A stretch of 64,000 nt of DNA from Halpernia humi. GTDB taxonomy: Bacteria; Bacteroidota; Bacteroidia; Flavobacteriales; Weeksellaceae. The notes below the pieces were generated by a model, which did not search any database, had not been told where the DNA came from, and saw only the letters and a list, made by a program, of their open reading frames with translations. Location: assembly GCF_900108025.1 (NCBI RefSeq), contig NZ_FNUS01000002.1, positions 62,001-126,000 of the forward strand. The letters run 5' to 3'. Shown here piece after piece: positions 8,384 through 38,462 of the stretch. Made by a program: the position numbers and the translations under genes. The first letter of the stretch is position 1; each line of letters starts with the position of its first letter.

Positions 8384-9226
8384 TTGAAAACTTCTGTCTA
8401 TTCTTCAGATAAGCAAACCCATTTCTTTCAGGAGTTGAAGGATATGTTTACCGATATTAAATCCTCTAATTTTTTAGCATTTCAATTAGCAAAAAGAGAT
8501 TTACAGTCACAATACAGACAATCTTTTCTCGGTTTTTTCTGGGCATTTGCTCCCATTATTACCAACTCTTTAGTTTGGATTTTTTTAAATAATTCTGGCA
8601 CAGTCAATGTAAATTCAGATCAGAAGATTCCTTATGTTTTATTTGTAGTTATAGGGACAACAGTTTGGAGTATTTTTACGGAAAGTATGATGATTCCTCT
8701 TACATCAGTAAACAGTGCCCGAAGCATATTATCAAAAATTAATTTTCCGAAAGAGGCACTTTTAATATCGGGAATATACAAACTAGGTTTCAATCTCGGC
8801 TTAAAATTATTGATGATTGCTTTATTTTTAGTAATTTATAGTGTGAAACCTGGAATAGAAATTTTGTATTTCCCCTTTATTTTAATTTCTATTATGTGTC
8901 TTTCTATGTCTATAGGATTGCTCATTACTCCTTTAGGTTTAATATATACAGATATTGCAAAAGTTATTACTACTGCCATTCCTTTTCTTATGTACTTTAC
9001 GCCGGTAGTTTATGCAGTTCCTCAACAAGGTTTTTTCAAAAAGTTATTCGAACTCAATCCACTTACGTTTTTATTTAATGATGCTCGAAACGCACTTGTC
9101 GGAATTTCTGTTGATAATCTAAACTTCGCATTGATAGTTTTGGTGATTAGTTCTATAATTTTGCTTATTGGCTTGGTGATTTTTAGAAAATCTATGCCAA
9201 TAATCATTGAAAAAATTGGAGGATAA
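8384..9226 (+). CDS. wzm: Polysaccharide ABC exporter, permease subunit (Wzm type)
   Basis: This 280-residue ABC-2 type permease has about six hydrophobic segments, and its N-terminal block LAKRDLQSQYRQSFLGFFWA is typical of O-antigen and teichoic-acid exporters (Wzm/TagG). It moves lipid-linked polysaccharide across the inner membrane with the ATPase encoded next. The gene starts at TTG 8384 if the full frame is used; an ATG at 8444 is an alternative that keeps the conserved block. Its stop overlaps the start of the ATPase gene, so the two are translationally coupled. Confidence 0.9.
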   Translation: MKTSVYSSDKQTHFFQELKDMFTDIKSSNFLAFQLAKRDLQSQYRQSFLGFFWAFAPIITNSLVWIFLNNSGTVNVNSDQKIPYVLFVVIGTTVWSIFTESMMIPLTSVNSARSILSKINFPKEALLISGIYKLGFNLGLKLLMIALFLVIYSVKPGIEILYFPFILISIMCLSMSIGLLITPLGLIYTDIAKVITTAIPFLMYFTPVVYAVPQQGFFKKLFELNPLTFLFNDARNALVGISVDNLNFALIVLVISSIILLIGLVIFRKSMPIIIEKIGG

Positions 9227-10425
9227 TGGTAGAGAATGAGGTTTTAGTATCAGTAAACAATGTGTCTAAAAAGTTTTCTAAGGATTTGAAATCCTCGTTG
9301 AAATACGGAGCATGGGATATTCTGAAAAGTAGTTTTGGCATTCCTATAAAAAAAGATTTGCGGCAAAAAGAATTTTGGGCTGTGAAAGACGTAAGTTTTG
9401 AGTTAAAGCGAGGAGAATGCATTGGACTAATCGGGCATAATGGTGCAGGAAAAAGCACACTACTCAAAGTTTTAAATGGTCTTTACAACCCAGACGAAGG
9501 AGAAATTGTGATGAAAGGAAAAGTAGGCGCATTGATAGAATTAGGCGCTGGATTTAATCCTATCCTTTCTGGTAGAGAAAACATTTATAATAATGCGTCT
9601 ATTTTGGGATTTACCAAAAAAGAAGTTGCTGCAAAAATAGACTCTATCATCGCCTTTTCTGAGATAGAAGATTTTATCGATATGCCAGTACAAAATTATT
9701 CTTCTGGTATGAAGGTAAGGTTAGGTTTTGCTGTTGCAGCGCATCTGGAACCAGATGTTTTAATCATCGATGAGGTTTTAGCAGTAGGAGATTTGGGATT
9801 TGTATTGAAATGTTTCAACAAAATTGATGAATTACTTCCTGAAACAGCCGTTATTTTTGTATCTCACAGTATGCCAATGGTTTCTAGGATTTGTAATCAG
9901 ATCATTTTGATGGATCATGGTAAAGTTGAATACATTGGAACGGATATAGGAAAAGGAGTGCAGTTTTATTATAACAAATTTTCTAATAATGATCAAAATA
10001 AAGTTTTTGATAATGGCACTTTTGAAATGTTTTCTTTGGAAACAAATTTAGTAGAAAATATAGCGCACTACAAAAAAGATTTTACGCTAACTTTTAGGTT
10101 TAAAGTTAATAGAAATATAGGCAATTGCCCTGTACTTTACCTAGAATTTAAAGACAAGGAACAAAAACCAATTGCTGGTGTGTTTGTAAAAGACGATATA
10201 AATCTGTCTTCAGAAAATTCGATAATTGTGTACCGAACTACCATTAAGAACCCCCTTTTTACTTTAGGTAAATACATTGTTGATGTTGGATTATATGAAC
10301 AAAATCTAGGTAAACCTTATTTACGAATTAATAATGCACTCGAATTTATTGTGAGTGGTGACAAAGAGCAATGGGTGCCTTTTCAATTAGAGACAGAAAA
10401 TATTGTTGCAATAGAATCAATTTAA
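9226..10425 (+). CDS. wzt: Polysaccharide ABC exporter, ATPase subunit with C-terminal binding domain (Wzt type)
   Basis: This 399-residue protein has an N-terminal ABC domain with Walker A GHNGAGKST (70-78), signature YSSGMKVRLG and Walker B VLIIDEVLAVGD. It is followed by a beta-rich C-terminal domain of about 135 residues. Such an extension is found in Wzt proteins that recognise a modified chain end before export, as in E. coli O9a. This suggests that a polymer is finished in the cytoplasm and capped before transport. It overlaps the permease gene and is followed after 3 bases by the aminotransferase gene. Confidence 0.93.
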   Translation: MVENEVLVSVNNVSKKFSKDLKSSLKYGAWDILKSSFGIPIKKDLRQKEFWAVKDVSFELKRGECIGLIGHNGAGKSTLLKVLNGLYNPDEGEIVMKGKVGALIELGAGFNPILSGRENIYNNASILGFTKKEVAAKIDSIIAFSEIEDFIDMPVQNYSSGMKVRLGFAVAAHLEPDVLIIDEVLAVGDLGFVLKCFNKIDELLPETAVIFVSHSMPMVSRICNQIILMDHGKVEYIGTDIGKGVQFYYNKFSNNDQNKVFDNGTFEMFSLETNLVENIAHYKKDFTLTFRFKVNRNIGNCPVLYLEFKDKEQKPIAGVFVKDDINLSSENSIIVYRTTIKNPLFTLGKYIVDVGLYEQNLGKPYLRINNALEFIVSGDKEQWVPFQLETENIVAIESI

Positions 10426-10428
10426 TTT

Positions 10429-11511
10429 ATGATACCAGTAACCAAACCTTTCCTCCCACTAAAAGAAGATTATGGGAAATATTTAGACGGCATTTGGACC
10501 AGAAACTGGCTCACGAACATGGGGCCATTGGCAAACGATTTGGAACTAAAACTAAAAGAAATTCTAAAAGTAAAGCATCTGCTTTTTGTAACCAATGGAA
10601 CTGTAGCATTGCAAATGGCTATAAAAGCATTAGAATTAGAAGGCGAAATTATTACCACCCCTTTTTCATTTGTGGCTACAACAAGTACGATAGTTTGGGA
10701 AAATTGCAAACCTGTTTTTGTAGATATTGATGAAAATTCTTTAAACATAGATGCCAATAAAATAGAAGCCGCAATTACGGATAAAACTTCTGCAATTTTG
10801 GCAACTCACGTTTACGGAAATCCTTGTGATGTAGAAAGAATCGAAAAGATTGCAGAGAAACATAATTTAAAAGTAATATATGATGGAGCACATGCTTTTG
10901 GAGTTGAAGTAAATGGAAAATCTATTTTTGAATTTGGTGATATTTCTACATGCTCTTTGCACGCAACTAAACTATATCATTCTATAGAAGGCGGATTGGT
11001 GATTACAAAAGACCCACATTTATTGAAAAAATTAGCGTACATGCGAAATTTCGGATTTGATGGGCCGGAGAAATTTGCTGAATTGGGTTTGAATGCAAAA
11101 AATTCTGAATTTCATGCAGCAATGGGTTTAGCAAATCTTAAATATTTAGAAAAAATTCATCAGAAAAGAAAATTACTTTCGCACAGATATGATGAAAAAC
11201 TAAGAACATTCAAGGCGCGAAGACCGATTTGGCATTCCGAATCTGAAAATAATTTTTCCTATTATCCTATAATTTTCGAAAACGAGGAACTAATGCTTAA
11301 ATGCATAGAAAATTTGAAATCTTATGAAATTTTCACGCGAAGATATTTTTATCCCTCATTGGCAGACTCGCTTCCATACGTAGAAAGAAAACAACTTTCG
11401 GTAACCGATCAGACCTCCAAAAGAGTCTTATGCCTTCCTTTATACCATGATTTAACTATAGAGGAAGTAGATATGATTTGTAGGTTATTATTGAGAATTC
11501 AAAATAATTAA
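10429..11511 (+). CDS. vioA: DegT-family sugar-nucleotide aminotransferase (VioA-like)
   Basis: This 360-residue PLP enzyme of the DegT/DnrJ/EryC1/StrS family has the Schiff-base lysine K181 in SLHATKLYHSIEGG. The start IPVTKPFLPLKEDYGKYLDG and the TTPFSFVATTSTIVW block resemble VioA, which aminates dTDP-4-keto-6-deoxyglucose to dTDP-4-amino-4,6-dideoxyglucose. The VioF-like formyltransferase 80 bases downstream supports this substrate. RmlA and RmlB, needed for the precursor, are not in the window. The family call is firm; the exact sugar is inference. Confidence 0.8.
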   Translation: MIPVTKPFLPLKEDYGKYLDGIWTRNWLTNMGPLANDLELKLKEILKVKHLLFVTNGTVALQMAIKALELEGEIITTPFSFVATTSTIVWENCKPVFVDIDENSLNIDANKIEAAITDKTSAILATHVYGNPCDVERIEKIAEKHNLKVIYDGAHAFGVEVNGKSIFEFGDISTCSLHATKLYHSIEGGLVITKDPHLLKKLAYMRNFGFDGPEKFAELGLNAKNSEFHAAMGLANLKYLEKIHQKRKLLSHRYDEKLRTFKARRPIWHSESENNFSYYPIIFENEELMLKCIENLKSYEIFTRRYFYPSLADSLPYVERKQLSVTDQTSKRVLCLPLYHDLTIEEVDMICRLLLRIQNN

Positions 11512-11591
11512 AAAGTAGAATCTAGGATAGAATTTGCATTAAATAATCAAAATATATAGAACATATTTACAAAATAATTAGGAGCAATATT

Positions 11592-12332
11592 ATGTACAAA
11601 AATATTTTAATTATATCAGATAACCTGCACTTATGTAAAGGGTTTGAAAACATAATATGCGAATTTAATATCCCAAACGTAGAATGGACTTTTTCTATAA
11701 GTCCGTTTTCTCAAATTGAAGATTTTAATCTCGAATTACAAAACAATGTTAGTATAACGAATCTAAAAGAAGACAGTGAAATAGAAATGCTTTTAAAAAA
11801 GCACGATTTAATTTTTTCAATTCATTGTAAACAAATCTTTCCAGAGAAATTATTAAGTCAGGTGAAATGCATTAACATTCATCCTGGATATAACCCAATA
11901 AATAGAGGATGGTATCCACAAGTTTTTGCAATTATCAATGACACACAGATTGGTGCTACTATCCATGAAATTGACGCAAAATTAGATCATGGCCCAATAA
12001 TAGATCGAGATTTTGTAGAAAAAAATAGTTGGGACACATCTCTTAGTTTGTATGAAAAAGTAATTAAATTGGAGATGAAACTTTTAAGAAAAAATTTAAC
12101 AAAAATTATTGAAAACTCATATAAAACAATTCAAGCAGAAGGCGAAGGTCATTTATATTTGAAAAAAGATTTTAATAATTTGTGTGAAATAAAATTGGAT
12201 GAAATGCAAACGGTACAAAAAACAATAGACAAGTTAAGAGCATTAACTCACGGAGAATATAAAAATGCTTACTATATTGATAAAATAAGTGGTAAAAAAA
12301 TTTTTATAAAAATTCAATTTGAAAAGCAATAA
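11592..12332 (+). CDS. vioF: Sugar-nucleotide N-formyltransferase (VioF-like)
   Basis: This 246-residue formyltransferase has the Asn-His-Asp triad of the fold: N95 and H97 in INIHPGYNPINRGWYPQ and D132 in KLDHGPI. The RGWYPQVF segment and the length are those of dTDP-4-amino-4,6-dideoxyglucose formyltransferase (VioF), not of methionyl-tRNA or purine formyltransferases. It would use N10-formyl-tetrahydrofolate to make dTDP-4-formamido-4,6-dideoxyglucose. It follows the VioA-like gene, its expected partner, and is 3 bases from the next glycosyltransferase gene. Confidence 0.85.
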   Translation: MYKNILIISDNLHLCKGFENIICEFNIPNVEWTFSISPFSQIEDFNLELQNNVSITNLKEDSEIEMLLKKHDLIFSIHCKQIFPEKLLSQVKCINIHPGYNPINRGWYPQVFAIINDTQIGATIHEIDAKLDHGPIIDRDFVEKNSWDTSLSLYEKVIKLEMKLLRKNLTKIIENSYKTIQAEGEGHLYLKKDFNNLCEIKLDEMQTVQKTIDKLRALTHGEYKNAYYIDKISGKKIFIKIQFEKQ

Positions 12333-27895: not shown

Positions 27896-28834
27896 ATGAA
27901 AATCTCCGTCATCATTCCCGTTTATAATGCAGAAAAATTTATTACGCAAGCTGTAGAATCTGCGCTTCAATTTCAGGAGGTTTCTGAAGTGGTTTTGGTG
28001 GAAGATAATTCGCCAGACAATGCATTGGAAGTTTGCAAAAAATTAGCAGAAAATAACCCTCGTGTAAAATTATATCAACATCCCGACAAAAAAAACCATG
28101 GCGCAGGTGCGAGTAGAAATCTAGGAATAGAAAAATCATCGGGAGATTTTGTTGCTTTTTTGGATGCAGATGATTTTTATCTTCCAAATCGTTTTGATGC
28201 TGAAAAAGAATTGTTTAAAAATACTGAAGTAGAAGGCGTTTACGGCGCAATTGGCGTAAAATATTATTCTGAAAAAGCACGAGAACAATATTTTCATATT
28301 TACCAAGAAAAATTAGATACGGTTTACAAAAAAGCAAAGCCGGAAGACGTTTGTCCGGGCCAAATGAATTTGCGCGGAAGTTTTGGCTTAATTCATCTCG
28401 ATACTTTAACAATCAGAAAATCTGCGCTTTATAAAATGCCAAATTTGTTTAATGCAAGTTTGCGATTGCACCAAGATACAGAATTTACGATAAGGCTTTC
28501 TTATTATTTAAAATTATTTACAGGCATAAATGATGAAGCAATCGCCATTCGTGGCGTTCACGAAAACAATAGAATTACCAAAATCGAGACGAAAGAAGTA
28601 AAACCTGCAAGCACAAAAATTCTAATGTGGAATCAATTAAAAAATTGGGCAGAAAACGAGCCAAATTTCCCAGAAGAATATAAAAAACACATAGAAAGAA
28701 CACAGCGCAGTTTCGAAATTGCAAATGCTGGTTTCGTTAAAAAATGGGCGATGATTGTGAAATATTTTTTTCTAGATTTTCAATCCATCCGCTCGGGCTT
28801 GTATAATATTAATTTCCGAAAAGATTTATTTTAA
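27896..28834 (+). CDS. GT2 glycosyltransferase, paralogue B
   Basis: This 312-residue GT-A enzyme is closely related to the one at 25050-25994 and shares ISVIIPVYNAE, NHGAGASRNLGIEK and AFLDADDFYLPNRF. It ends the plus-strand run that began at the exporter. Its 3' end overlaps that of the minus-strand gene at 28831 by 4 bases, leaving no room for a terminator between the convergent units. Confidence 0.88.
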   Translation: MKISVIIPVYNAEKFITQAVESALQFQEVSEVVLVEDNSPDNALEVCKKLAENNPRVKLYQHPDKKNHGAGASRNLGIEKSSGDFVAFLDADDFYLPNRFDAEKELFKNTEVEGVYGAIGVKYYSEKAREQYFHIYQEKLDTVYKKAKPEDVCPGQMNLRGSFGLIHLDTLTIRKSALYKMPNLFNASLRLHQDTEFTIRLSYYLKLFTGINDEAIAIRGVHENNRITKIETKEVKPASTKILMWNQLKNWAENEPNFPEEYKKHIERTQRSFEIANAGFVKKWAMIVKYFFLDFQSIRSGLYNINFRKDLF

Positions 28835-29778
28835 TTTTCCAATAATTTTTTGCCGAGAACTTTAGAAAATTCATACCTGGATTTTTTATTCAAATGCACC
28901 AAATCTAAGTATTTATAATCATTTGGAACGAGATTATAATCAGTATAACTCACCTTATATTTTTTGGCAATTTGCTCCATTTTTTCATCAAAATCTGGTA
29001 TTCTTGTTTGCTCAATTTTATAGGGCGTAGAATCAATCGGGTTTCTTACCATAATCACTTTTCCATGCTGTTGCAAAAGTTCAATTGTTTTTTCTAAATA
29101 TTTCGCTCTGTTTTCAGACCATTTCAAGCCATTAATAAGATTTTGAAATAAAATCATTTTTCGTTTCATTTCTACCACTTTCCTTTTTGGCGGGTAATCT
29201 TTTAAACTAATGACATCTACTTCGCCATTATCCAAAATTTTTACTTCTGCCATCGGGTTTACAGGTGGCCGAATTTTATCATTTAAAACCTTTGTAATAG
29301 AAAAATCATAATTTTCTAATAAATAAGGAATATTTGGGTTTAAGTTTACAAAGTCAGTTTCGGCAAGCGATTTATCGTTTTCAAAATAATACTCTGGCGA
29401 ATCTGGTTTGTTTTTATCGACCATTAAAGTACTCGGCTCCACAGAAATTATGAAAAGACTGTTTTTCGTATCTGTTTTTAATTTCTTTTTGATTGACTCC
29501 AAATACGCGGGGCCATAAGGAGAATGCCCCCAAGTAAAGGCATAATTATAAAACTTAACCTTGGGATATTTTTTATTAACAATACTGTCTATTATTGCTG
29601 GGCTCAGACCTGCCGCGCGCGAACTCCCTATAATTAGTGCATTTTGTTGGGGAGAAGTAAATCTTTTATAAAAATCATCCGTCGTTTTCCCGGTGAGATA
29701 AACGGCGTAGCAAACTACGGCAAAAGGCACTATTGAAAAAAGCACCAATTTTAATATAGAATTTCTAAAATTGTGCAT
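28831..29778 (-). CDS. SGNH/DltD-AlgJ-like membrane-anchored acyl-transfer protein (putative)
   Basis: This 315-residue protein has one N-terminal membrane anchor (about residues 9-28) and an extracytoplasmic domain. NALIIGSSRAAGLSP near residues 46-60 could hold a nucleophilic serine, and DLVHLNKKS has a D292-x2-H295 pair, an arrangement typical of SGNH hydrolase-like proteins. It is encoded directly after the MBOAT protein, with a 14-base overlap. This is the pairing seen for AlgI/AlgJ-type and DltB/DltD systems that acylate surface polymers. The assignment is moderate because motif spacing is loose. Confidence 0.7.
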   Translation of the reverse strand: MHNFRNSILKLVLFSIVPFAVVCYAVYLTGKTTDDFYKRFTSPQQNALIIGSSRAAGLSPAIIDSIVNKKYPKVKFYNYAFTWGHSPYGPAYLESIKKKLKTDTKNSLFIISVEPSTLMVDKNKPDSPEYYFENDKSLAETDFVNLNPNIPYLLENYDFSITKVLNDKIRPPVNPMAEVKILDNGEVDVISLKDYPPKRKVVEMKRKMILFQNLINGLKWSENRAKYLEKTIELLQQHGKVIMVRNPIDSTPYKIEQTRIPDFDEKMEQIAKKYKVSYTDYNLVPNDYKYLDLVHLNKKSRYEFSKVLGKKLLEN

Positions 29779-31198
29779 AAATGTATCCTTTTGGTGCTAA
29801 ATAAAATAAAAATATCAGAAAAACCAACACATAGTAAAATCCCCACCGCACAATTCTGGGTTTAGAATCTAGGAAATTAGCAGTCGGAAATTCTTGATTT
29901 CTCGTGAGCCATTCTATTGCCATCATAAAAATAATTAATATTGCAACAAATCGCTGAAATTGAAAATTAGGCTTTTGAAAAAACGATAATGAAAAAATAC
30001 CTTTATAATAATGCAGCGCCATTTCTAAACTTTTAGAGAAAAATAGCACTTGCAAAAGCGCGAAAGAAATGAAGGTAATTATCATATTTTTTGCCTCTCT
30101 AAAAGTGGGCAAAATATTTAGATTTGGCTTTATTTTTTTACCCATTTTTCCACCTAAAATTAATGGGATAAACATAATGCCACTCACTAAACCATGAAAA
30201 ATATAATGCCATTCTGCGCCGTGCCAAAAACCGATGATGATAAAATTAATGATAATCGCTAAAATTAATCCGAATTTTCCATAATCTCTAAACTGAATAG
30301 AAAGCGGCGTGAATACATAATCTGTAACCCAAGAAGTAAGAGAAATATGCCATCTTCGCCAATAATCTGCCACATTTTGTGCAAAAAATGGGAAATTAAA
30401 ATTCTTCTGAACATTGATGCCCAACAATTTGCCAATCCCAATTGCCATATCAGAATAACCAGAAAAATCTGCGTATAATTGGATGAAATACAAAATCATC
30501 CCCACAAATAATGCGCTTCCGTTTAAACCCTCATATTTTGAAAATAACTCTGTGGTAATCACCGCAATTTGATCTGCAATTACTAATTTTTTAAAAAGTC
30601 CCCAAAGAATTTGTCTTAAACCCAAACTGAAAAGCGTGGCATTAAAAATTCTTTTCTCTTTTAATTGATTTAAAAAAACAAAAGAGCGATCGATAGGTCC
30701 TGCAATAATACAAGGGAAAAACGCGACATAAACCAAATATTCTAAAAGCGATTTGGATTCTTTTAATTTTCTATTTTTAATATCTAATAAATAACCCAGC
30801 ATCCGGAAAGAATAAAAACTAATCCCAATCGGGATGATGTATTGTAAAGTAGAAATATTGCCTTTAGAATGGAAAATTTTAAGCAAATCATTAAAATTTT
30901 CAATAAAAAAATTGGTGTATTTAAAATAAATTAATTGCCCCAAAACAACTAAAACGCCCAATCTTAACCACCATTTTTTCTCCGTATCTTTTGCGATAAG
31001 TAGTTGTTTGCCAATAAAATAAGTCGCAACCGAAGTGCCGAAAATGAGCAAAATAAATTGGTAAGACCAAATTGCGAAAAAAATATAACTCCCGATTAAT
31101 AAAATTATATTCTGGGTTTTGTTGGTCTTCGCCAAACGCCAATAAATAAAGAAAAGCGCTATGAAAAAAAAGATGAAATGATAAGAGTTTAAAAGCAT
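29765..31198 (-). CDS. MBOAT family O-acyltransferase (AlgI/DltB-like)
   Basis: This 477-residue integral membrane protein has the MBOAT hallmarks. ADYWRRWHISLTSWVTDYVF (278-297) is followed by a loop, and IIGFWHGAEWHYIFHG carries the catalytic histidine H326. MBOAT proteins move acyl groups from a carrier across the membrane to sugars, in alginate acetylation or in D-alanylation by DltB. An acyl carrier protein and an FkbH enzyme are encoded just upstream in the same operon, so the donor is probably a carrier-bound acid and not acetyl-CoA. Confidence 0.93.
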   Translation of the reverse strand: MLLNSYHFIFFFIALFFIYWRLAKTNKTQNIILLIGSYIFFAIWSYQFILLIFGTSVATYFIGKQLLIAKDTEKKWWLRLGVLVVLGQLIYFKYTNFFIENFNDLLKIFHSKGNISTLQYIIPIGISFYSFRMLGYLLDIKNRKLKESKSLLEYLVYVAFFPCIIAGPIDRSFVFLNQLKEKRIFNATLFSLGLRQILWGLFKKLVIADQIAVITTELFSKYEGLNGSALFVGMILYFIQLYADFSGYSDMAIGIGKLLGINVQKNFNFPFFAQNVADYWRRWHISLTSWVTDYVFTPLSIQFRDYGKFGLILAIIINFIIIGFWHGAEWHYIFHGLVSGIMFIPLILGGKMGKKIKPNLNILPTFREAKNMIITFISFALLQVLFFSKSLEMALHYYKGIFSLSFFQKPNFQFQRFVAILIIFMMAIEWLTRNQEFPTANFLDSKPRIVRWGFYYVLVFLIFLFYLAPKGYIYAQF

Positions 31199-31235
31199 TT
31201 TAAATAATAAATGTAAAAATTAAACCAAGTTTGTC

Positions 31236-31475
31236 CTACAATTTCGCTTCTAAAGAATCCATCAATTCGCCTAGATTATTCCAACTTTGGATTTCCGACG
31301 AGGTAAATCTTTTTTTAAAAGCCTTTTCTATGGCTACAATTAATTGTATGTGCGACAAAGAATCCCATTCTTCAACATCGTCTGCGGTGGTTTCTGCAGA
31401 AAGCACGATGTCATCATTTTCTAATTCTTCACGGAAAATCCCGGTGATTTTTTCTAAAATTTCTTCTCTTGTCAT
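31236..31475 (-). CDS. Acyl carrier protein (FkbH-associated)
   Basis: This 79-residue carrier protein has the phosphopantetheine site S39 in EEWDSLSHIQLIVAIE, with the canonical D-S-L. It sits 3 bases after the FkbH gene and upstream of the MBOAT gene. It is therefore the likely carrier for the acid loaded by FkbH. The four-helix ACP length is normal. Confidence 0.92.
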   Translation of the reverse strand: MTREEILEKITGIFREELENDDIVLSAETTADDVEEWDSLSHIQLIVAIEKAFKKRFTSSEIQSWNNLGELMDSLEAKL

Positions 31476-31478
31476 TTT

Positions 31479-33197
31479 TTATTTTTTTAAAATATAAACT
31501 TCTTTTGGCTCATAATTTTCAATATTTAAAAGCCATTTATTTTCGTGTTCTACAAAACCCAATCTTTCGTAATGCTTTTCTACCATTTGGTTTTTAGCGG
31601 TTGCGATGTATTCTCCGATGATGTTTTTATAGCCTTTTTCTTTCGCCAATTCTACAATTGTATTTAATGTAAAATCTTCCATACCTCGTTTTAATACTCG
31701 GCAACTCATTAGCCAAGTATTAATGAAAACATTTTCTGAATCTATTTTTTCTAAAATAATCACGCAAATTAAGCCATTATCACCGTATTTATCTTCTAAA
31801 GTAAAAGAAATGGTGTGGAAATTTTCATCATTCATCACGGTTTGTATTTCCTCTTCCGTGTATCTGATGGTTCTTAAATTAAATTGATTCGAACGTTGCG
31901 TAAGTTGTGAAACTCTTGGTTTTGAGAAATTATTAAACGCCTGAACGTCCGAAACCATATTCATGCTTTTAAGAAAATCTTCAAGGTTCGTGAAACTATC
32001 CAAAGCAATCACGCGCTGCGCTTCTACTTGATATTGCTTCGTTCTTTCGGCGTCGTTTTCAGAAAAACTGGTGGTTTCAAAAAGATCTAATCCATATAAA
32101 TACTCTAAATATTCCGCTGGATCCTCGGGTAATTCTGGCACACAAACTTCGGGCAAATTTTCCCGAACAATATTGCGCTCAAACGGATTATCATCTAAAA
32201 AAACCATAGAATCAAACCCGATATTTAATACATTTTGAATTTTTCTGATATTATCGGCTTTGTTGTCCCAATTGGCAACGAAAAAGGCAATATCTTCCAA
32301 TTTCAAAACCATGTCTGGATGTTTTTCAAAAGGCTCTTTTGCTTTGTCTTCGTCATTTTTGCTACAAACAGCAACTATAATTCCGCGTTTTTGCAAGGCT
32401 TTTACCCAATATTGAAGTTCCGTAAAAACCTTTCCAATCCCTAAACTCCCAATCTGGATTTTTTCTAAACCATCATCGCCAATTATTCCGCCCCAGGTGG
32501 TGTTATCTAAATCAAGAATAATACATTTTTTAAATTTCCCTTCCAATGAAGCCAAAATGCTAAAAATATTGTGAGCCACGATTGGCAAAGCGTCAAGCGA
32601 TAAAACCATTTCTGTATTCACATAAATATTCGGAGCGAACATAAAATTTCTGCCGAATTTATTTTGAATAGAAAGCAAATCTGCAATAAAAAGATTATCT
32701 TTTTTTACCGCTAATTCTTGCAATAAATAATTGAGTTTATTTTGCTGAAATACAAATGAAGATTCTACTTTCGTAGCAAAATTTCCAAAAACCTGGTTGT
32801 CAATTCCTGGGAAATTGCAAAATATCACTTTGCTTTTTGTGCGGTTTTGGATGGTAGAATAAAGTTCTTCGATTGCATTTATTTTATTTTGAGCAAAATC
32901 TAATGGAGAATTATAAGATTTATAGAAAAGGCTTAATAATTTGTGCGAAGATTCAAAAATAATCGTGTAATTGGCCTCAAATTCATAATATTCTGAAGTT
33001 GGATCTAAAATCTGCCGTGAAATTTGCCCGAAATCTGCCTCAAAAATTTCTAAATCAAAACCTTCATCAAATGCGATTCCTTTTAGCGCAACATTTAAAA
33101 ATTGCGTCGCCGTATCGCCGAGTAAGGCTACTTTTACTTTTTTTAGTCCGTCGGTATTTTTACTTAAATTTTTCTTTAATTGTGTGAAGGTTTTCAT
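31479..33197 (-). CDS. FkbH-like HAD-superfamily protein
   Basis: This 572-residue protein has a central HAD domain with CIILDLDNTTWGGIIGDDG (D229, D231) and a C-terminal GNAT-like region ending in the YERLGF segment, the layout of FkbH. Characterised FkbH-type enzymes dephosphorylate 1,3-bisphosphoglycerate and load the glyceryl group onto an ACP; the adjacent ACP gene fits. The operon thus suggests a glyceryl-derived or similar acid for surface modification. The product is inferred, as FkbH homologues in Bacteroidota are little studied. Confidence 0.9.
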   Translation of the reverse strand: MKTFTQLKKNLSKNTDGLKKVKVALLGDTATQFLNVALKGIAFDEGFDLEIFEADFGQISRQILDPTSEYYEFEANYTIIFESSHKLLSLFYKSYNSPLDFAQNKINAIEELYSTIQNRTKSKVIFCNFPGIDNQVFGNFATKVESSFVFQQNKLNYLLQELAVKKDNLFIADLLSIQNKFGRNFMFAPNIYVNTEMVLSLDALPIVAHNIFSILASLEGKFKKCIILDLDNTTWGGIIGDDGLEKIQIGSLGIGKVFTELQYWVKALQKRGIIVAVCSKNDEDKAKEPFEKHPDMVLKLEDIAFFVANWDNKADNIRKIQNVLNIGFDSMVFLDDNPFERNIVRENLPEVCVPELPEDPAEYLEYLYGLDLFETTSFSENDAERTKQYQVEAQRVIALDSFTNLEDFLKSMNMVSDVQAFNNFSKPRVSQLTQRSNQFNLRTIRYTEEEIQTVMNDENFHTISFTLEDKYGDNGLICVIILEKIDSENVFINTWLMSCRVLKRGMEDFTLNTIVELAKEKGYKNIIGEYIATAKNQMVEKHYERLGFVEHENKWLLNIENYEPKEVYILKK

Positions 33198-33204
33198 CTA
33201 ATTT

Positions 33205-33975
33205 TTACTTTACAAAAACACCAATATATTTTCCTTCATATTCAATAACTTCCGTTTTTATCGAATGTTTTTCGCAAAAATCTTGGTACGCAGAATTATC
33301 GCCAATGTCATCACTGATGAATACGCCGCCTTTTCTTAAAGATTTGTAAAGTTGCTCATACGCCCAATTTCTGCCTTCGTAACTTTTATCAGAATCATAA
33401 TGAACAACATCACAAACTGCACTTTCTGCAAATATTTTTGGTAAAGATTCTCTGTCGGCTTGGCGGTGAAGTTTCCAGAATTTTTTTAAATTTTCTGGCA
33501 CTATACAACCTACGTATTGATCACCGTTTTGCCCCAAATACGGCATATCTGAACTGTAAAGTTTGCCATCTCTTTTCTCCACAGAAACTAAAGCGGCCAG
33601 CGAAGACCAACCGTATGCAACGCCAGTTTCAATTACACTTTTTGCATTTGTAAATTCGCAAGCGTAATAAATAAGTTCTAATGCACCAGGACCGCCCATT
33701 TTTATAGGGCAATCTTTTTCTTTTTGAGTGGCAATTTTAAAATCTTCTGCAAAAACTTCCGCAAAAGGGATGCTTTTTATGTCGAATAATTTTTTGATCA
33801 CATTTTCTTGCGTAGTCGCTTGTGAATTTGCCCAAGTTAAAGTTTTTTGCTTTCCGCGAAAGGCGCTTTTTCTATTAAAAATATTTTTAATGATTTTTCT
33901 TCCCAATTCAGGGTAAAGATCTGGTCTTTTTAAATATCCTATTAAAGTTTTGCTTACCCGTAAAATTTCGCCCAC
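33205..33975 (-). CDS. SAM-dependent methyltransferase (Methyltransf_24-like)
   Basis: This 256-residue protein has motif I SVIETGVAYGWSSLAAL and a later acidic block, VVHYDSDKSYEGRNWAYE, followed by LRKGGVFISDDIGDN. This matches class I methyltransferases of the CmcI/Methyltransf_24 type. It is the first gene of the minus-strand cassette, with a GTG start. The substrate may be a sugar or the carrier-bound acid; FkbG-like methyltransferases act on glyceryl-ACP derivatives, which makes the second option attractive. Confidence 0.8.
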   Translation of the reverse strand: MGEILRVSKTLIGYLKRPDLYPELGRKIIKNIFNRKSAFRGKQKTLTWANSQATTQENVIKKLFDIKSIPFAEVFAEDFKIATQKEKDCPIKMGGPGALELIYYACEFTNAKSVIETGVAYGWSSLAALVSVEKRDGKLYSSDMPYLGQNGDQYVGCIVPENLKKFWKLHRQADRESLPKIFAESAVCDVVHYDSDKSYEGRNWAYEQLYKSLRKGGVFISDDIGDNSAYQDFCEKHSIKTEVIEYEGKYIGVFVK

Positions 33976-34089: not shown

Positions 34090-34926
34090 ATGAAATTCTC
34101 AATTTTAATAGCAAATTATAACAATGGCAAGTTTTTCAAGGATTGTTTTTTAAGCATTTGCGCGCAAAGTTACCAAAATTGGGAAGTCGTAATTTTGGAT
34201 GATGCTTCTACAGATGATTCGGTTGCCATTATTAAAGACATCATTTCGGGCGATTCTCGTTTTCGTTTTTATGAAAACAAAGAAAATAAAGGTGTGGGAT
34301 TTACCAAAAGTAAATTAATTGATTTGGCAAATGGCGAAATTTGCGGCTACCTCGATCCAGATGATGCCATTTTAGAAAATGCATTGCAGGCTTCCATAGA
34401 CATTTTTAAGACAAAAAAATCAGCAGTTTTAACGTATTCGCGATTGGTGAAATGTGATGAAAACTTGAATCCTTTAGAAGAATTTCGCGCTGCAATGCAA
34501 GTTCCAAACGGGGATAAAAATTTTTTTAATTGTCCTATTCAAATTGCACCTTTTGTGGGTTTTAAAAAAGCGGTCTATTTGAAATGCGAAAAAATGAACG
34601 AAACTTTAAAAATAGCAGAAGACCAAGATTTGTATTTTAAAATGTATGAAAAAGGGAAAGTTTATTTTGTAAATCAAACAGATTATCTTTATCGCGCCCA
34701 TTCTGGCGGCATTTCTCAGAACGAAAATAAACAAAAATCTTATGATTTCTGGGCCGTTGCTATTTTTAATGCAATGAAACGGCGCGGTTTAAAAAGCATT
34801 AATGGCAAGCAAATCCCTGAAAAGTTTACGACTCCTAAAGATATTTTCGATTTATTAGTTTATCAAAATTCTATTCCTTATCGAATAAAAAAGAAATTAA
34901 AGGTTATTTTTCAATCTTTATTTTAA
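34090..34926 (+). CDS. GT2 glycosyltransferase
   Basis: This 278-residue GT-A enzyme has ILIANYNNGKFFKDCFLSI, VILDDASTDDSVAII, NKGVGFTKSKLI and the metal-binding GYLDPDDAI. It lies directly downstream of a divergent promoter region and 8 bases before a GT4 gene. The sugar and acceptor are unknown. Confidence 0.88.
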   Translation: MKFSILIANYNNGKFFKDCFLSICAQSYQNWEVVILDDASTDDSVAIIKDIISGDSRFRFYENKENKGVGFTKSKLIDLANGEICGYLDPDDAILENALQASIDIFKTKKSAVLTYSRLVKCDENLNPLEEFRAAMQVPNGDKNFFNCPIQIAPFVGFKKAVYLKCEKMNETLKIAEDQDLYFKMYEKGKVYFVNQTDYLYRAHSGGISQNENKQKSYDFWAVAIFNAMKRRGLKSINGKQIPEKFTTPKDIFDLLVYQNSIPYRIKKKLKVIFQSLF

Positions 34927-36132: not shown

Positions 36133-37578
36133 ATGAATTCTTTTATAAAAAACTTACACCAATCTTTTTCGCAAAACAGCGATCAAATCTGTATTTCTAT
36201 TGATGGTGAAAATTTTAAATACAGTGAAGTTTTATATTTTTCTGAGCAAATCAGGCATCAACTTCAGGCGGTAAATTCACAAAATATTGGTATTTATTTG
36301 TCAGATGATGTTTTTATGTATGCTTCAATTTTAGCCGTTTGGCATGAAGGAAAAACCTACGTTCCGTTGCATCCAGAATTTCCTTTAAGTAAAAATCTAA
36401 GCGTAATTCAGCAAGCAAAAATTGAAACCGTTTTAACCTCCATTGAAATTAAGGATGATTTTGGTTTAAAATTAATCGATTCTCGGAAAGATTTTAATAA
36501 AATTCCAACGCCGCCAAAAGATTCAGCTTTAGAAAATAACGCTTACATTTTGTTTACTTCTGGAAGCACGGGAAACCCGAAAGGCGTTCCGATTACCTTT
36601 TCAAATTTATATTATTTTTCGGAATCTTTTCACGAAATTTTTGGGAAATTATCGCCTGAAGATAGCGTTTTGCAAATGTTTGAACTCACGTTTGATTTAT
36701 CGGTAATGAGTTATTTAATCCCCTGGTTGAACGGTGCAAAAGTAGTCGGGCTTCATAAAAAAGAAACAAAATCTTTGCAAATTCTCGATCTTTTGGAAGC
36801 CGATGAAATAACGGTCGCATTGATGGTTCCAAGTATTTTAAATTTAATTTTTCCTTATTTAGACGATAGCATAAAAAATTCTAGTCTTCGGCTAAATCTA
36901 TTTTGCGGCGAAGCATTATTGGTAAAACAAATAGAAAATTGGCGCGGTTTTATTCCAAATGCGAAAATTTATAATGTTTACGGTCCCACAGAAAATACTA
37001 TTTTTTGTACATTTTATGAAATTAATGAAAATATTAAAGAAAAAAATGGCATAATCAGCATTGGGAAATCGCTTCCAAATAGCACTATGAGTTTCATTGA
37101 TGAAAATTCTGATGAAGGCGAACTTTTACTTTCGGGGCAACTTTTAACCAAATTTTATTGGGAAAATGAAAGCAAAACCAAAGAGACATTTTTAGAAATT
37201 GACGGAAACAGATTTTACAAAACCGGTGATTATTGCTTGAAAGACACAGATGGTGATTTTTTCTACACCAACCGGATAGATTTTCAAGCCAAAATAAATG
37301 GTTTTCGGGTAGAATTATCTGAAATAGAATTTTTTGCCAACCAAAAATTGAAACAAGGCATAAGTCTAGCCACAACTTCTAAAGACAGCAATGGTAACGA
37401 TTTTCTGGTTTTATTTACTAATGATTTAGAAATTAAAGAGCAAGAATTATTAGATTATTTGCTCCAAAATCTCGCCGGTTATTCCATTCCTTCCAAAGTG
37501 ATAAAAATTGCAGAATTTCCGCACAATACTTCGGGGAAAATTGATAGACCACAACTGAAAAAAAACTATAATTTATGA
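36133..37578 (+). CDS. DltA-like amino-acid adenylating enzyme
   Basis: This 481-residue AMP-forming enzyme has FTSGSTGNPKGVP (141-153), TFDLSV (186-191), LFCGE (256-260), YGPTE (283-287), TGD (364-366) and a terminal SGKIDR with K469. D188 in FDLSV is the position that binds the substrate amine in DltA and NRPS adenylation domains. C258 in LFCGE matches the cysteine linked to D-alanine selectivity in Bacillus DltA. Length is close to DltA (about 500). It is predicted to activate an amino acid, possibly D-alanine, and load it on a carrier such as the one at 38188 or 31236. Confidence 0.8.
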   Translation: MNSFIKNLHQSFSQNSDQICISIDGENFKYSEVLYFSEQIRHQLQAVNSQNIGIYLSDDVFMYASILAVWHEGKTYVPLHPEFPLSKNLSVIQQAKIETVLTSIEIKDDFGLKLIDSRKDFNKIPTPPKDSALENNAYILFTSGSTGNPKGVPITFSNLYYFSESFHEIFGKLSPEDSVLQMFELTFDLSVMSYLIPWLNGAKVVGLHKKETKSLQILDLLEADEITVALMVPSILNLIFPYLDDSIKNSSLRLNLFCGEALLVKQIENWRGFIPNAKIYNVYGPTENTIFCTFYEINENIKEKNGIISIGKSLPNSTMSFIDENSDEGELLLSGQLLTKFYWENESKTKETFLEIDGNRFYKTGDYCLKDTDGDFFYTNRIDFQAKINGFRVELSEIEFFANQKLKQGISLATTSKDSNGNDFLVLFTNDLEIKEQELLDYLLQNLAGYSIPSKVIKIAEFPHNTSGKIDRPQLKKNYNL

Positions 37579-38195
37579 TGCTTCGGAATGCCAAGAAAGA
37601 AGATATTCCCTTTATTATAGACGGAATTTTAGAAATTGAAAAAACGGAAAATAGCAATAGTTACAATAATCTTTTCGGGACAGAAAGTGAAGAAACTAAG
37701 ATAATTCTCTCTGCTTTTTTTAACGATGAAGAAAATTTTGACACCGAATTATCGTTAAATAGTTTTGCGGTGGCAGAAATTGATGGCGAAATTGCAGGAT
37801 GTTGTTCCAAGATTTTTACAAATCAAGATTATTACAGAAATAAAGGTGAACTTTTCCCCATTCATCTTAGCAGCGACGTCTTAAAAATTTTTATGAATAA
37901 TGCGCAAACTTTGCCCGACAGCAGGGCAATTAGCGAAAATAAAAGTTTTGTAGAATATATTTTCGTATCAAAGTTTTTTAGAAAAAAAGGTGTTGCAGAA
38001 GCATTAATACAGAAAAGTATTGAAAAAATAAATTCAGAAAAAGTATATATTAATGTTTTTAGTACTAATGATTATGCCATAGAATATTATCGTAAATTGG
38101 GCTTTGAGAAGTTTAAAGAAGTAAAGATTGACGAGAATCCACCGAGGTTTTATCCGTCAGCGGAAAAATTAATTATGGTAAAAAAAATTAACTAA
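37575..38195 (+). CDS. GNAT family N-acetyltransferase
   Basis: This 206-residue GNAT protein has the acetyl-CoA-binding segment FVSKFFRKKGVAEALI (R/Q-x2-G-x-A type) and the C-terminal NDYAIEYYRKLGFEKFKE. It overlaps the DltA-like gene by 4 bases, so they are coupled. It may acylate the amino group of a sugar or of the activated amino acid. The 3' end overlaps the minus-strand carrier gene by 8 bases. Confidence 0.85.
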   Translation: MMLRNAKKEDIPFIIDGILEIEKTENSNSYNNLFGTESEETKIILSAFFNDEENFDTELSLNSFAVAEIDGEIAGCCSKIFTNQDYYRNKGELFPIHLSSDVLKIFMNNAQTLPDSRAISENKSFVEYIFVSKFFRKKGVAEALIQKSIEKINSEKVYINVFSTNDYAIEYYRKLGFEKFKEVKIDENPPRFYPSAEKLIMVKKIN

Positions 38196-38418
38196 AAACC
38201 TCTGGCGCAACAACTTCTGCAATATCATTTACCGTTTTTATAGTTCTGAAACTTCTAGGGTTTAATGTTGTACCCAATTCGTTTTCAATTAATTGCAGCA
38301 CTAAAACCGAAGTTAACGAACCGAAAGAACTCAATTCTTTAAAATTAGTTTCAGGTGTGATTTTAGATTCTTCGCCCAATTCTTTGCGTAGAAGTTCACA
38401 AAATTGCTCTTTTGTCAT
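38188..38418 (-). CDS. Acyl/peptidyl carrier protein with a GSL site
   Basis: This 76-residue protein has the carrier-protein pattern FGSLTSVLVLQLIENELG, with S34 as the presumed phosphopantetheine site. The usual D-S-L is changed to G-S-L. The ATG at 38418 was chosen over an in-frame TTG 21 bases upstream. It is convergent with the GNAT gene and next to the DltA-like gene, so it is a good candidate for its carrier (a DltC equivalent). Confidence 0.78.
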   Translation of the reverse strand: MTKEQFCELLRKELGEESKITPETNFKELSSFGSLTSVLVLQLIENELGTTLNPRSFRTIKTVNDIAEVVAPEVFS

Positions 38419-38436
38419 CGTGTTTTTTATTGTCTG

Positions 38437-38462
38437 CAAATATATTAATTATTTTAAATTTG
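38437..38462. promoter_or_regulatory. Divergent overlapping -7 boxes between carrier and acetyltransferase genes
   Basis: On the minus strand TATATTTG (38437-38444) faces the carrier gene, 18 bases from its ATG. On the plus strand TAAATTTG (38455-38462) lies only 4 bases before the ATG at 38467, with a TTG at 38430-38432 at 22-base spacing. The plus-strand transcript would start at or beside the ATG (leaderless). Confidence 0.5.

Follow-up and report, generated by a model that had tools for sequence, protein, structure and literature searches.

The locus described here raises the question of how a loading protein of the polyketide type might come to supply acyl groups to a bacterial surface glycan. 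It lies in a stretch of 64,000 nucleotides from Halpernia humi (assembly GCF_900108025.1, contig NZ_FNUS01000002.1, positions 62,001 to 126,000 of the forward strand), which we call the window and whose own coordinates are used throughout. In the open reading frame (ORF) list of the window, five densely packed minus-strand ORFs were found at 28831-33975. In the order of transcription they are as follows:

33205-33975, minus strand: S-adenosylmethionine (SAM)-dependent methyltransferase (MT; PF13578, E 2.9e-10), which opens the apparent transcription unit and forms the resident border of a variable slot.
31479-33197, minus strand: FkbH-type loader of 572 amino acids (aa), a predicted glyceryl-ACP synthase (TIGR01686, FkbH_N).
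31236-31475, minus strand: acyl carrier protein (ACP) of 79 aa (PF00550, E 9.4e-7).
29765-31198, minus strand: DltB-like MBOAT of 477 aa (PF03062, E 2.1e-19; TIGR04091, E 7e-50).
28831-29778, minus strand: membrane-anchored SGNH protein of 315 aa, a putative transferase (weak Lipase_GDSL_2 match, E 0.008, below cut-off).

The genes are separated by 7 bases (MT to FkbH), 3 bases (FkbH to ACP), and 37 bases (ACP to MBOAT), and the MBOAT and SGNH genes overlap by 14 bases. A preliminary description of this DNA had proposed such a five-gene operon inside a polysaccharide locus, with a DSL site in the ACP, a notable H326 in the MBOAT, and an SGNH-like membrane protein, and all of these features were recovered. 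It had also read the set as carrier-based glycan acylation with MT taking part in the acyl chemistry. Carrier-based acylation with an FkbH loader is supported, whereas the part given to MT is not.

We consider it probable that the cassette is a carrier-fed MBOAT-SGNH system which acylates a surface glycan with a glyceryl group supplied through FkbH and ACP. FkbH would take a glyceryl unit, for which 1,3-bisphosphoglycerate is the source in described relatives, and load it onto the small ACP. The DltB-like MBOAT would accept glyceryl-ACP at the cytoplasmic face and, using His326, move the glyceryl group, on the periplasmic side, to Tyr474 in the shuttle peptide at its own C terminus. From there, the SGNH protein, anchored in the membrane, would take the group on Ser53 and transfer it as an ester to the polysaccharide of the locus, its predicted acceptor. 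We link ACP to MBOAT because of gene order, MBOAT phylogeny, a residue signature, and the C-terminal shuttle motif.

FkbH scored 299.8 bits against TIGR01686 (cut-off, 146.65) and matched FkbH_N with an E value of 8.5e-69. Residues 2-381 match PDB entry 3slr (BF1531; E 9.4e-147), and the HAD motif DLDNT (residues 229-233, about 32499-32513) is, together with C499, invariant in five aligned FkbH sequences, those of the window and four relatives. The phosphopantetheine Ser39 of ACP (codon at about 31359-31361) sits within the DSL motif at residues 38-40. According to two papers (PMC4979870, PMC7489565), the FkbH-ACP pairs of tetronate pathways handle glycerate. Glyceryl is the substrate predicted for FkbH from its family. 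Once MT is set aside, no further acyl-modifying gene is present in the window cassette, so an unmodified glyceryl group is the simplest prediction. The adjoining FkbH protein and stand-alone ACP resemble the glyceryl units of polyketide pathways (tetronates, methoxymalonyl-ACP), but the window cassette has no FabH-like protein, dehydrogenases, or polyketide synthase, and its acyl group is apparently exported to a glycan.

The MBOAT resembles DltB in both sequence and fold. It is the sole match to the DltB model TIGR04091 in its genome, at 170.3 bits against a cut-off of 375; Pfam MBOAT_2 (PF13813), the wrong model, gave no match. It matches DltB in the PDB by sequence, and its predicted structure (predicted local distance difference test score [pLDDT] of 84, with the last seven residues of low confidence) fits DltB best, with an E value of 9e-13. 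H326, the predicted catalytic residue, is the His of GFWHG (about 30221-30223) and is kept in all 75 aligned MBOATs. The protein ends in YIYAQF, with Tyr474 at about 29777-29779, which fits FXYXXF with Tyr for Phe at the first position. Tyr474 and Phe477 are likewise present in 75 of 75 MBOATs; the first position is Phe in 72 and Tyr in three, the window's protein being one of the three. According to PMC12148441, PatA forms an acyl-Tyr in its C-terminal FXYXXF motif, DltX is a separate microprotein with the same motif, and DltB is supplied with its acyl group by a carrier. The same source describes MBOAT-SGNH systems outside Dlt as having no carrier, evidently because acyl-CoA is used.

In the SGNH protein, Ser53, Asp292, and His295 are invariant in 10 aligned sequences and form a putative triad. 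The protein sequence had no match in the PDB at E<=1. Its structure model, of middling quality (pLDDT of 71), matches SGNH folds: Foldseek ranked PatB (7tjb) best, with an E value of 8.4e-5, and DltD (6o93) was found at 1.9e-3.

Whether the MBOAT draws on a carrier or on acyl-CoA was addressed with a tree of 99 of 106 MBOAT-labelled genes, a quick tree with long branches. Four genes were left out by a length filter and three because they lie in L150, L172, and L181, loci outside the six-frame annotation (L and G numbers are our handles for loci and genomes); the L150 MBOAT, outside the tree, is ACP linked. The window MBOAT falls in a clade of 41 rows (SH-aLRT support of 100), in which an ACP is adjacent in 40. 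In the other large clade, here called carrier-less, an ACP is adjacent in none of 34 by a strict rule and in 7 of 34 by a looser one. The looser rule, used first, accepted any ACP within 3.5 kb on the same strand (40/41 versus 7/34). The strict rule, under which no other MBOAT or SGNH gene may intervene but tailoring genes and FkbH may, was adopted after the seven proved to be additional MBOATs that belong to the same array or follow another MBOAT-SGNH pair; it changed 10 labels. The ACP-adjacency label requires 8 changes on the tree, compared with about 32 in shuffles, so ACP adjacency clusters on the tree without having a single origin.

The two clades are best told apart by columns that include 132, 170, 292, 300-301, 313, 314, and 318. 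Asn occupies position 314 in 36 of the 41 rows that lack an adjacent ACP and in 1 of the 58 that have one. GG at 300-301 and Arg-Asn at 313-314 are nearly fixed in carrier-less MBOATs and are absent from the window MBOAT. DltB, which played no part in choosing the columns, agrees with the ACP clade at 10 of the top 20 and with the carrier-less clade at 3; it resembles neither at 4 and is unaligned at 3. Separating residues of this kind may report the donor of an MBOAT.

These data bear on the alternative that the MBOAT-SGNH pair is an ordinary acetyl-CoA-dependent O-acetyltransferase and that FkbH and ACP feed a separate cytoplasmic acylation, such as N-acylation of an amino sugar. The carrier-less state of non-Dlt MBOAT-SGNH pathways, as stated in the source cited above, would favor it, as would the GNAT and other acyltransferases of the locus. 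So would a contrast set of 20 stretches taken from the best-scoring MBOAT matches in the phylum, none with FkbH beside the MBOAT: ACP, MaoC, or VOC genes occurred in the chains of none of its 23 MBOATs (SDR genes occurred in 2 and an aldo-keto reductase gene in 1). ACP adjacency at the level of a whole clade, a residue signature partly common to DltB, and the lack of GG and Arg-Asn in the window MBOAT argue in the other direction. In addition, L053, L054, and L176 each have, besides the carrier-linked MBOAT, another one that belongs to the carrier-less clade. We regard the acetyl-CoA alternative as unlikely, although it deserves to be kept in mind.

The gene order expected from the preliminary description was observed in part across relatives. 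FkbH, ACP, and MBOAT are collinear in 52 of 80 named FkbH loci, but the MT of the window appears in the chain in only 9. Set against these loci, the lack of any ACP in the chains of the 23 contrast MBOATs also favors the link between ACP and MBOAT in the cassette. It should be noted that these loci are the best-scoring 80 of 571 confirmed candidates, not a random sample, and that gene labels came from profiles built on the same loci. Several of them (L066, L093, L101, L102, and L117) have less than 1 kb of sequence behind FkbH, and because many records are metagenome assembled, misplaced contigs are possible. On the same strand as FkbH, the gene chain around it includes an ACP in 72 loci and an MBOAT in 55, and 46 of 65 MBOATs in FkbH chains are followed by an SGNH-labelled gene. 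According to the record labels, the trio occurs in Bacteroidota, Clostridia, Treponema (L080), Verrucomicrobiota (L113), Omnitrophota (L099), and Desulfovibrio (L110). The cassette is broadly distributed yet uncommon.

Genes for tailoring enzymes vary among the 54 named loci that hold both ACP and MBOAT. Twenty are bare, 13 contain MaoC and SDR, 5 contain VOC, 5 contain VOC and a methyltransferase, 4 contain MaoC and a split transketolase (three of these with an aldo-keto reductase), and 7 hold other mixtures. Over all 80 loci, MaoC and SDR occur together (both in 22, MaoC only in 6, SDR only in 3; Fisher P value of 2e-11), and MaoC and VOC avoid each other (1 locus with both; P value of 5e-4); these values are descriptive only, because related loci are not independent. 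The FkbH proteins of 14 other loci of the family are 75-84% identical to that of the window, while the downstream tailoring and transferase genes differ. In L175, a single FkbH, the only match in that genome, accompanies two ACP-MBOAT-SGNH sets. Only one of the sets includes MaoC-SDR, and the two ACPs share 79% identity. Together, these observations fit one loader with exchangeable export units.

The MaoC and SDR, VOC, methyltransferase, or transketolase genes of relatives imply that the acyl groups are interchangeable. Through dehydration and ketoreduction, MaoC and SDR would convert glyceryl-ACP to lactyl-ACP. Bryostatin-type loading, in which FkbH acts with a dehydratase and a ketoreductase, offers a parallel for this lactyl route that our literature search did not confirm: the portions of open-licence papers retrieved for bryostatin and FkbH contained no bryostatin loading chemistry. 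Relatives that carry FkbH, MaoC, and SDR possess these same activities, but as stand-alone enzymes adjoining an MBOAT, and the window cassette has neither MaoC nor SDR. A wider proposal, to which we give slightly less than an even chance, is a modular acyl-ACP line with a glyceryl starter, swappable editing enzymes, and a carrier-gated MBOAT clade whose fused Tyr shuttle exports any ACP cargo. Within it, the editors would be MaoC and SDR (yielding lactyl), VOC with or without a methyltransferase, and split transketolase with aldo-keto reductase, assignments that we make tentatively.

The same genes leave some room for FkbH to load a C3 unit other than glyceryl (lactyl, pyruvyl, or phosphoglyceryl), with the route unchanged and a different ester as product. 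Lactyl could arise from glyceryl through the MaoC and SDR of relatives, so that transferases may accept C3 groups of related kinds, and a window-type MBOAT also stands beside MaoC-SDR in L058. The window cassette itself has neither MaoC nor SDR, and the tetronate FkbH-ACP pairs in the papers cited above handle glycerate. A different C3 unit is distinctly unlikely, and glyceryl is retained as the predicted group.

Other arrangements were seen among the named loci. FkbH occurs with split transketolase and MaoC in L080, L081, L087, L110, and L113 (Treponema, Bacteroidales, Hoylesella, Desulfovibrio, and Verrucomicrobiota), with an aldo-keto reductase in three; perhaps a longer or branched acyl group is built on the ACP there. 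Two Chryseobacterium loci carry related proteins of 441-442 aa between FkbH and ACP (L056, 10716-12044; L104, 10710-12035), and the L056 protein had no Pfam match. In L076 (Bacteroidales), FkbH, ACP, and VOC lie between very large proteins of 2119 and 2073 aa with adenylation or FkbH domains, so the FkbH-ACP-VOC trio seems to occur in a natural-product cluster too.

Several results weigh against a carrier-fed glyceryl transfer in the window. Eighteen ACP-adjacent MBOATs (Clostridia, some Bacteroidota, and others) fall outside the clade, and none has the full signature; the ACP-adjacent MBOAT of L106 even has carrier-less residues. At residue 292, which ranks second among the separating columns, DltB has the Arg of carrier-less MBOATs, so some of the differences do not follow the donor, and the likeness to DltB could be explained by shared descent as well as by a shared donor or function. 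For the SGNH model, VIA-align placed GDSL lipases on top (Z 13.5), tied with PatB (Z 12.7). Finally, FkbH had a match in only 17 of 198 genomes drawn evenly from the phylum; the surroundings were inspected as wide stretches for 8 of these and the window, and as short loci for the other 8. Among the FkbH loci inspected from this draw, FkbH, ACP, and MBOAT were together only in the window's own genome and in G181, so most FkbH-like proteins there do something else.

Two described systems are the closest comparisons. The cassette shares with the Dlt D-alanylation system of Gram-positive bacteria (DltA, DltC, DltB, DltX, and DltD) a small carrier as presumed donor, here the DSL-containing ACP encoded 37 bases upstream of the MBOAT gene, a DltB-like MBOAT by sequence and fold, an acyl-Tyr shuttle motif, and an SGNH partner. 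However, its loader is FkbH rather than the adenylating DltA (a nearby DltA-like protein has its own ACP), its shuttle peptide is fused to the MBOAT rather than located on DltX, its predicted acceptor is the glycan of an ABC-exporter locus rather than a teichoic acid, and its MBOAT scores 170 bits where 375 is the cut-off for a true DltB. With the motif at the MBOAT C terminus and the ORFs closely packed, there is no room for a DltX gene in the operon, the only part of the genome examined for one. The cassette would work like Dlt but is not a member of it, differing in the loader, in DltX, and in the equivalog score.

With MBOAT-SGNH O-acetylation of the PatAB type, the cassette shares a fused C-terminal FXYXXF-like motif, the catalytic His, and a PatB-like SGNH fold. 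It differs in its dedicated ACP and FkbH, its residues of the carrier-linked clade, and its presumed donor, acyl-ACP rather than acetyl-CoA. A carrier as in Dlt and a fused shuttle as in Pat amount to a hybrid layout. By combining the two in one system, the family is a clear candidate exception to the rule, as given in PMC12148441, that non-Dlt MBOAT-SGNH systems are carrier-less.

In the open-licence literature, we found no description of an FkbH-ACP-MBOAT cassette as a surface-glycan system and nothing on FkbH with O-antigen or on FkbH, bryostatin, and lactyl together. Within that literature, FkbH was mentioned with MBOAT only in work on suomilide or aeruginosin peptides. Judged by title, papers joining FkbH with glyceryl dealt with natural-product clusters, one unrelated Cannabis study aside, and those on gellan with glyceryl and an acyltransferase dealt with drug delivery. 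From gene content alone, esters of glyceryl, lactyl, and other unusual groups can be predicted on the surface glycans of bacteria. If the modular line is real, polyketide-style chemistry diversifies O-antigen-like decorations across Bacteroidota and beyond, with an insertion slot beside a resident MT gene in Chryseobacterium relatives.

The role of MT was assessed from its distribution and from the borders of this slot, which are flanked by two further genes:

27896-28834, plus strand: GT2 glycosyltransferase (PF00535), the left border of the insertion slot.
34090-34926, plus strand: GT2 glycosyltransferase (PF00535) on the far side of MT, adjoining MT in six cassette-less loci.

Of 120 genomes of the family, 47 have an MT match and 12 an FkbH match (E<=1e-3). 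Both occur in five genomes, four of them, the window's own included, with FkbH at an identity of at least 77%; the remaining 42 MT genomes have no FkbH match. Among the 12 FkbH-positive genomes, the cassette was seen in the four whose FkbH surroundings were inspected (the window, L175, L176, and L177), and FkbH of the other eight is 33-39% identical. Nineteen MT genomes were compared with the window: three have the cassette, six have an exact empty site, and the rest have different genes or a different order. At the empty site (L164, L165, L167, L169, L174, and L180), the stop codons of GT2 and MT are separated by -4 to +3 bases, whereas in the window GT2 and MT are 4,370 bases apart, which is exactly SGNH, MBOAT, ACP, and FkbH. 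Among the six, L174 has one unlabelled ORF between MT and the far-side GT2 gene. The slot next to the resident MT is a decoration site with variable content.

The preliminary description had seen FkbG chemistry in MT, and a corresponding alternative is that the acyl group is a methylated glycerate or a methoxymalonate-like unit made with MT, the transfer still being carrier fed. MT is co-directional with FkbH and 7 bases upstream of it, a different methyltransferase lies inside the module in 11 of 80 named loci, and, for suomilide, PMC13122637 proposes an FkbH together with an O-methyltransferase domain that acts on glycerate. The distribution does not agree with this. MT occurs without FkbH in 42 of 47 genomes and stays in place where the cassette is missing; among the 80 named loci it joins the FkbH chain in only 9, which by record title all belong to Chryseobacterium or Kaistella, and in eight loci (L049, L050, L051, L053, L054, L055, L175, and L176) other acyltransferase genes separate it from FkbH. 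The two dehydrogenases of the methoxymalonyl-ACP pathway, as given in PMC7489565, have no counterpart in the cassette, and with MT independent of FkbH the FkbG-K type of set is absent. A methylated acyl group is thus unlikely. MT was rejected as a part of the acylation module on the strength of the 42 FkbH-free genomes and the six empty sites that keep it. It would instead serve another step of the same glycan locus, and a second, acquired role in this strain is possible.

In relatives, the slot corresponding to 28834-33205 holds AT3 acyltransferases (L170, L173, and L182), AT3 with an MBOAT-SGNH pair (L172), YdjC-like proteins among others (L166, L168, and L171), or the FkbH cassette.

The wider setting agrees with the polysaccharide locus of the preliminary description, and includes the following members:

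8384-10425: ATP-binding cassette (ABC) exporter pair of the polysaccharide locus.
10429-12332: DegT aminotransferase and N-formyltransferase.

The locus also encodes many glycosyltransferases, a GNAT, and other acyltransferases. The exporter pair, aminotransferase, formyltransferase, and glycosyltransferases therefore mark an exporter-type glycan locus. The DegT aminotransferase and N-formyltransferase may place a formylated amino sugar in the glycan.

A second carrier module lies 2.2 kb from MT:

36133-37578, plus strand: DltA-like adenylation protein (DltA models, E 2.2e-74, below cut-off).
37575-38195, plus strand: GNAT.
38188-38439, minus strand: second ACP (PF00550, E 7.2e-9).

Its match to DltA models and its closeness to MT suggest one more alternative, namely that the adenylation protein charges the cassette ACP with an amino acid in a Gram-negative Dlt system, FkbH having another role. 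The trio of adenylation protein, GNAT, and own ACP recurs, however, in L180, an empty-site locus whose genome has no FkbH match and whose 18 kb stretch has no MBOAT. Within 9-kb flanks, adenylation protein and GNAT were found near only 1 (L052) of 11 named Chryseobacterium or Kaistella cassette loci. On these grounds, loading of the cassette ACP by its DltA-like neighbor was set aside, and a Gram-negative Dlt system is very improbable here. At the corresponding place, relatives have KASIII-ACP with or without SDR (L172 and L176) or nothing (L164). The module at 36133-38439 perhaps serves N-acylation of an amino sugar.

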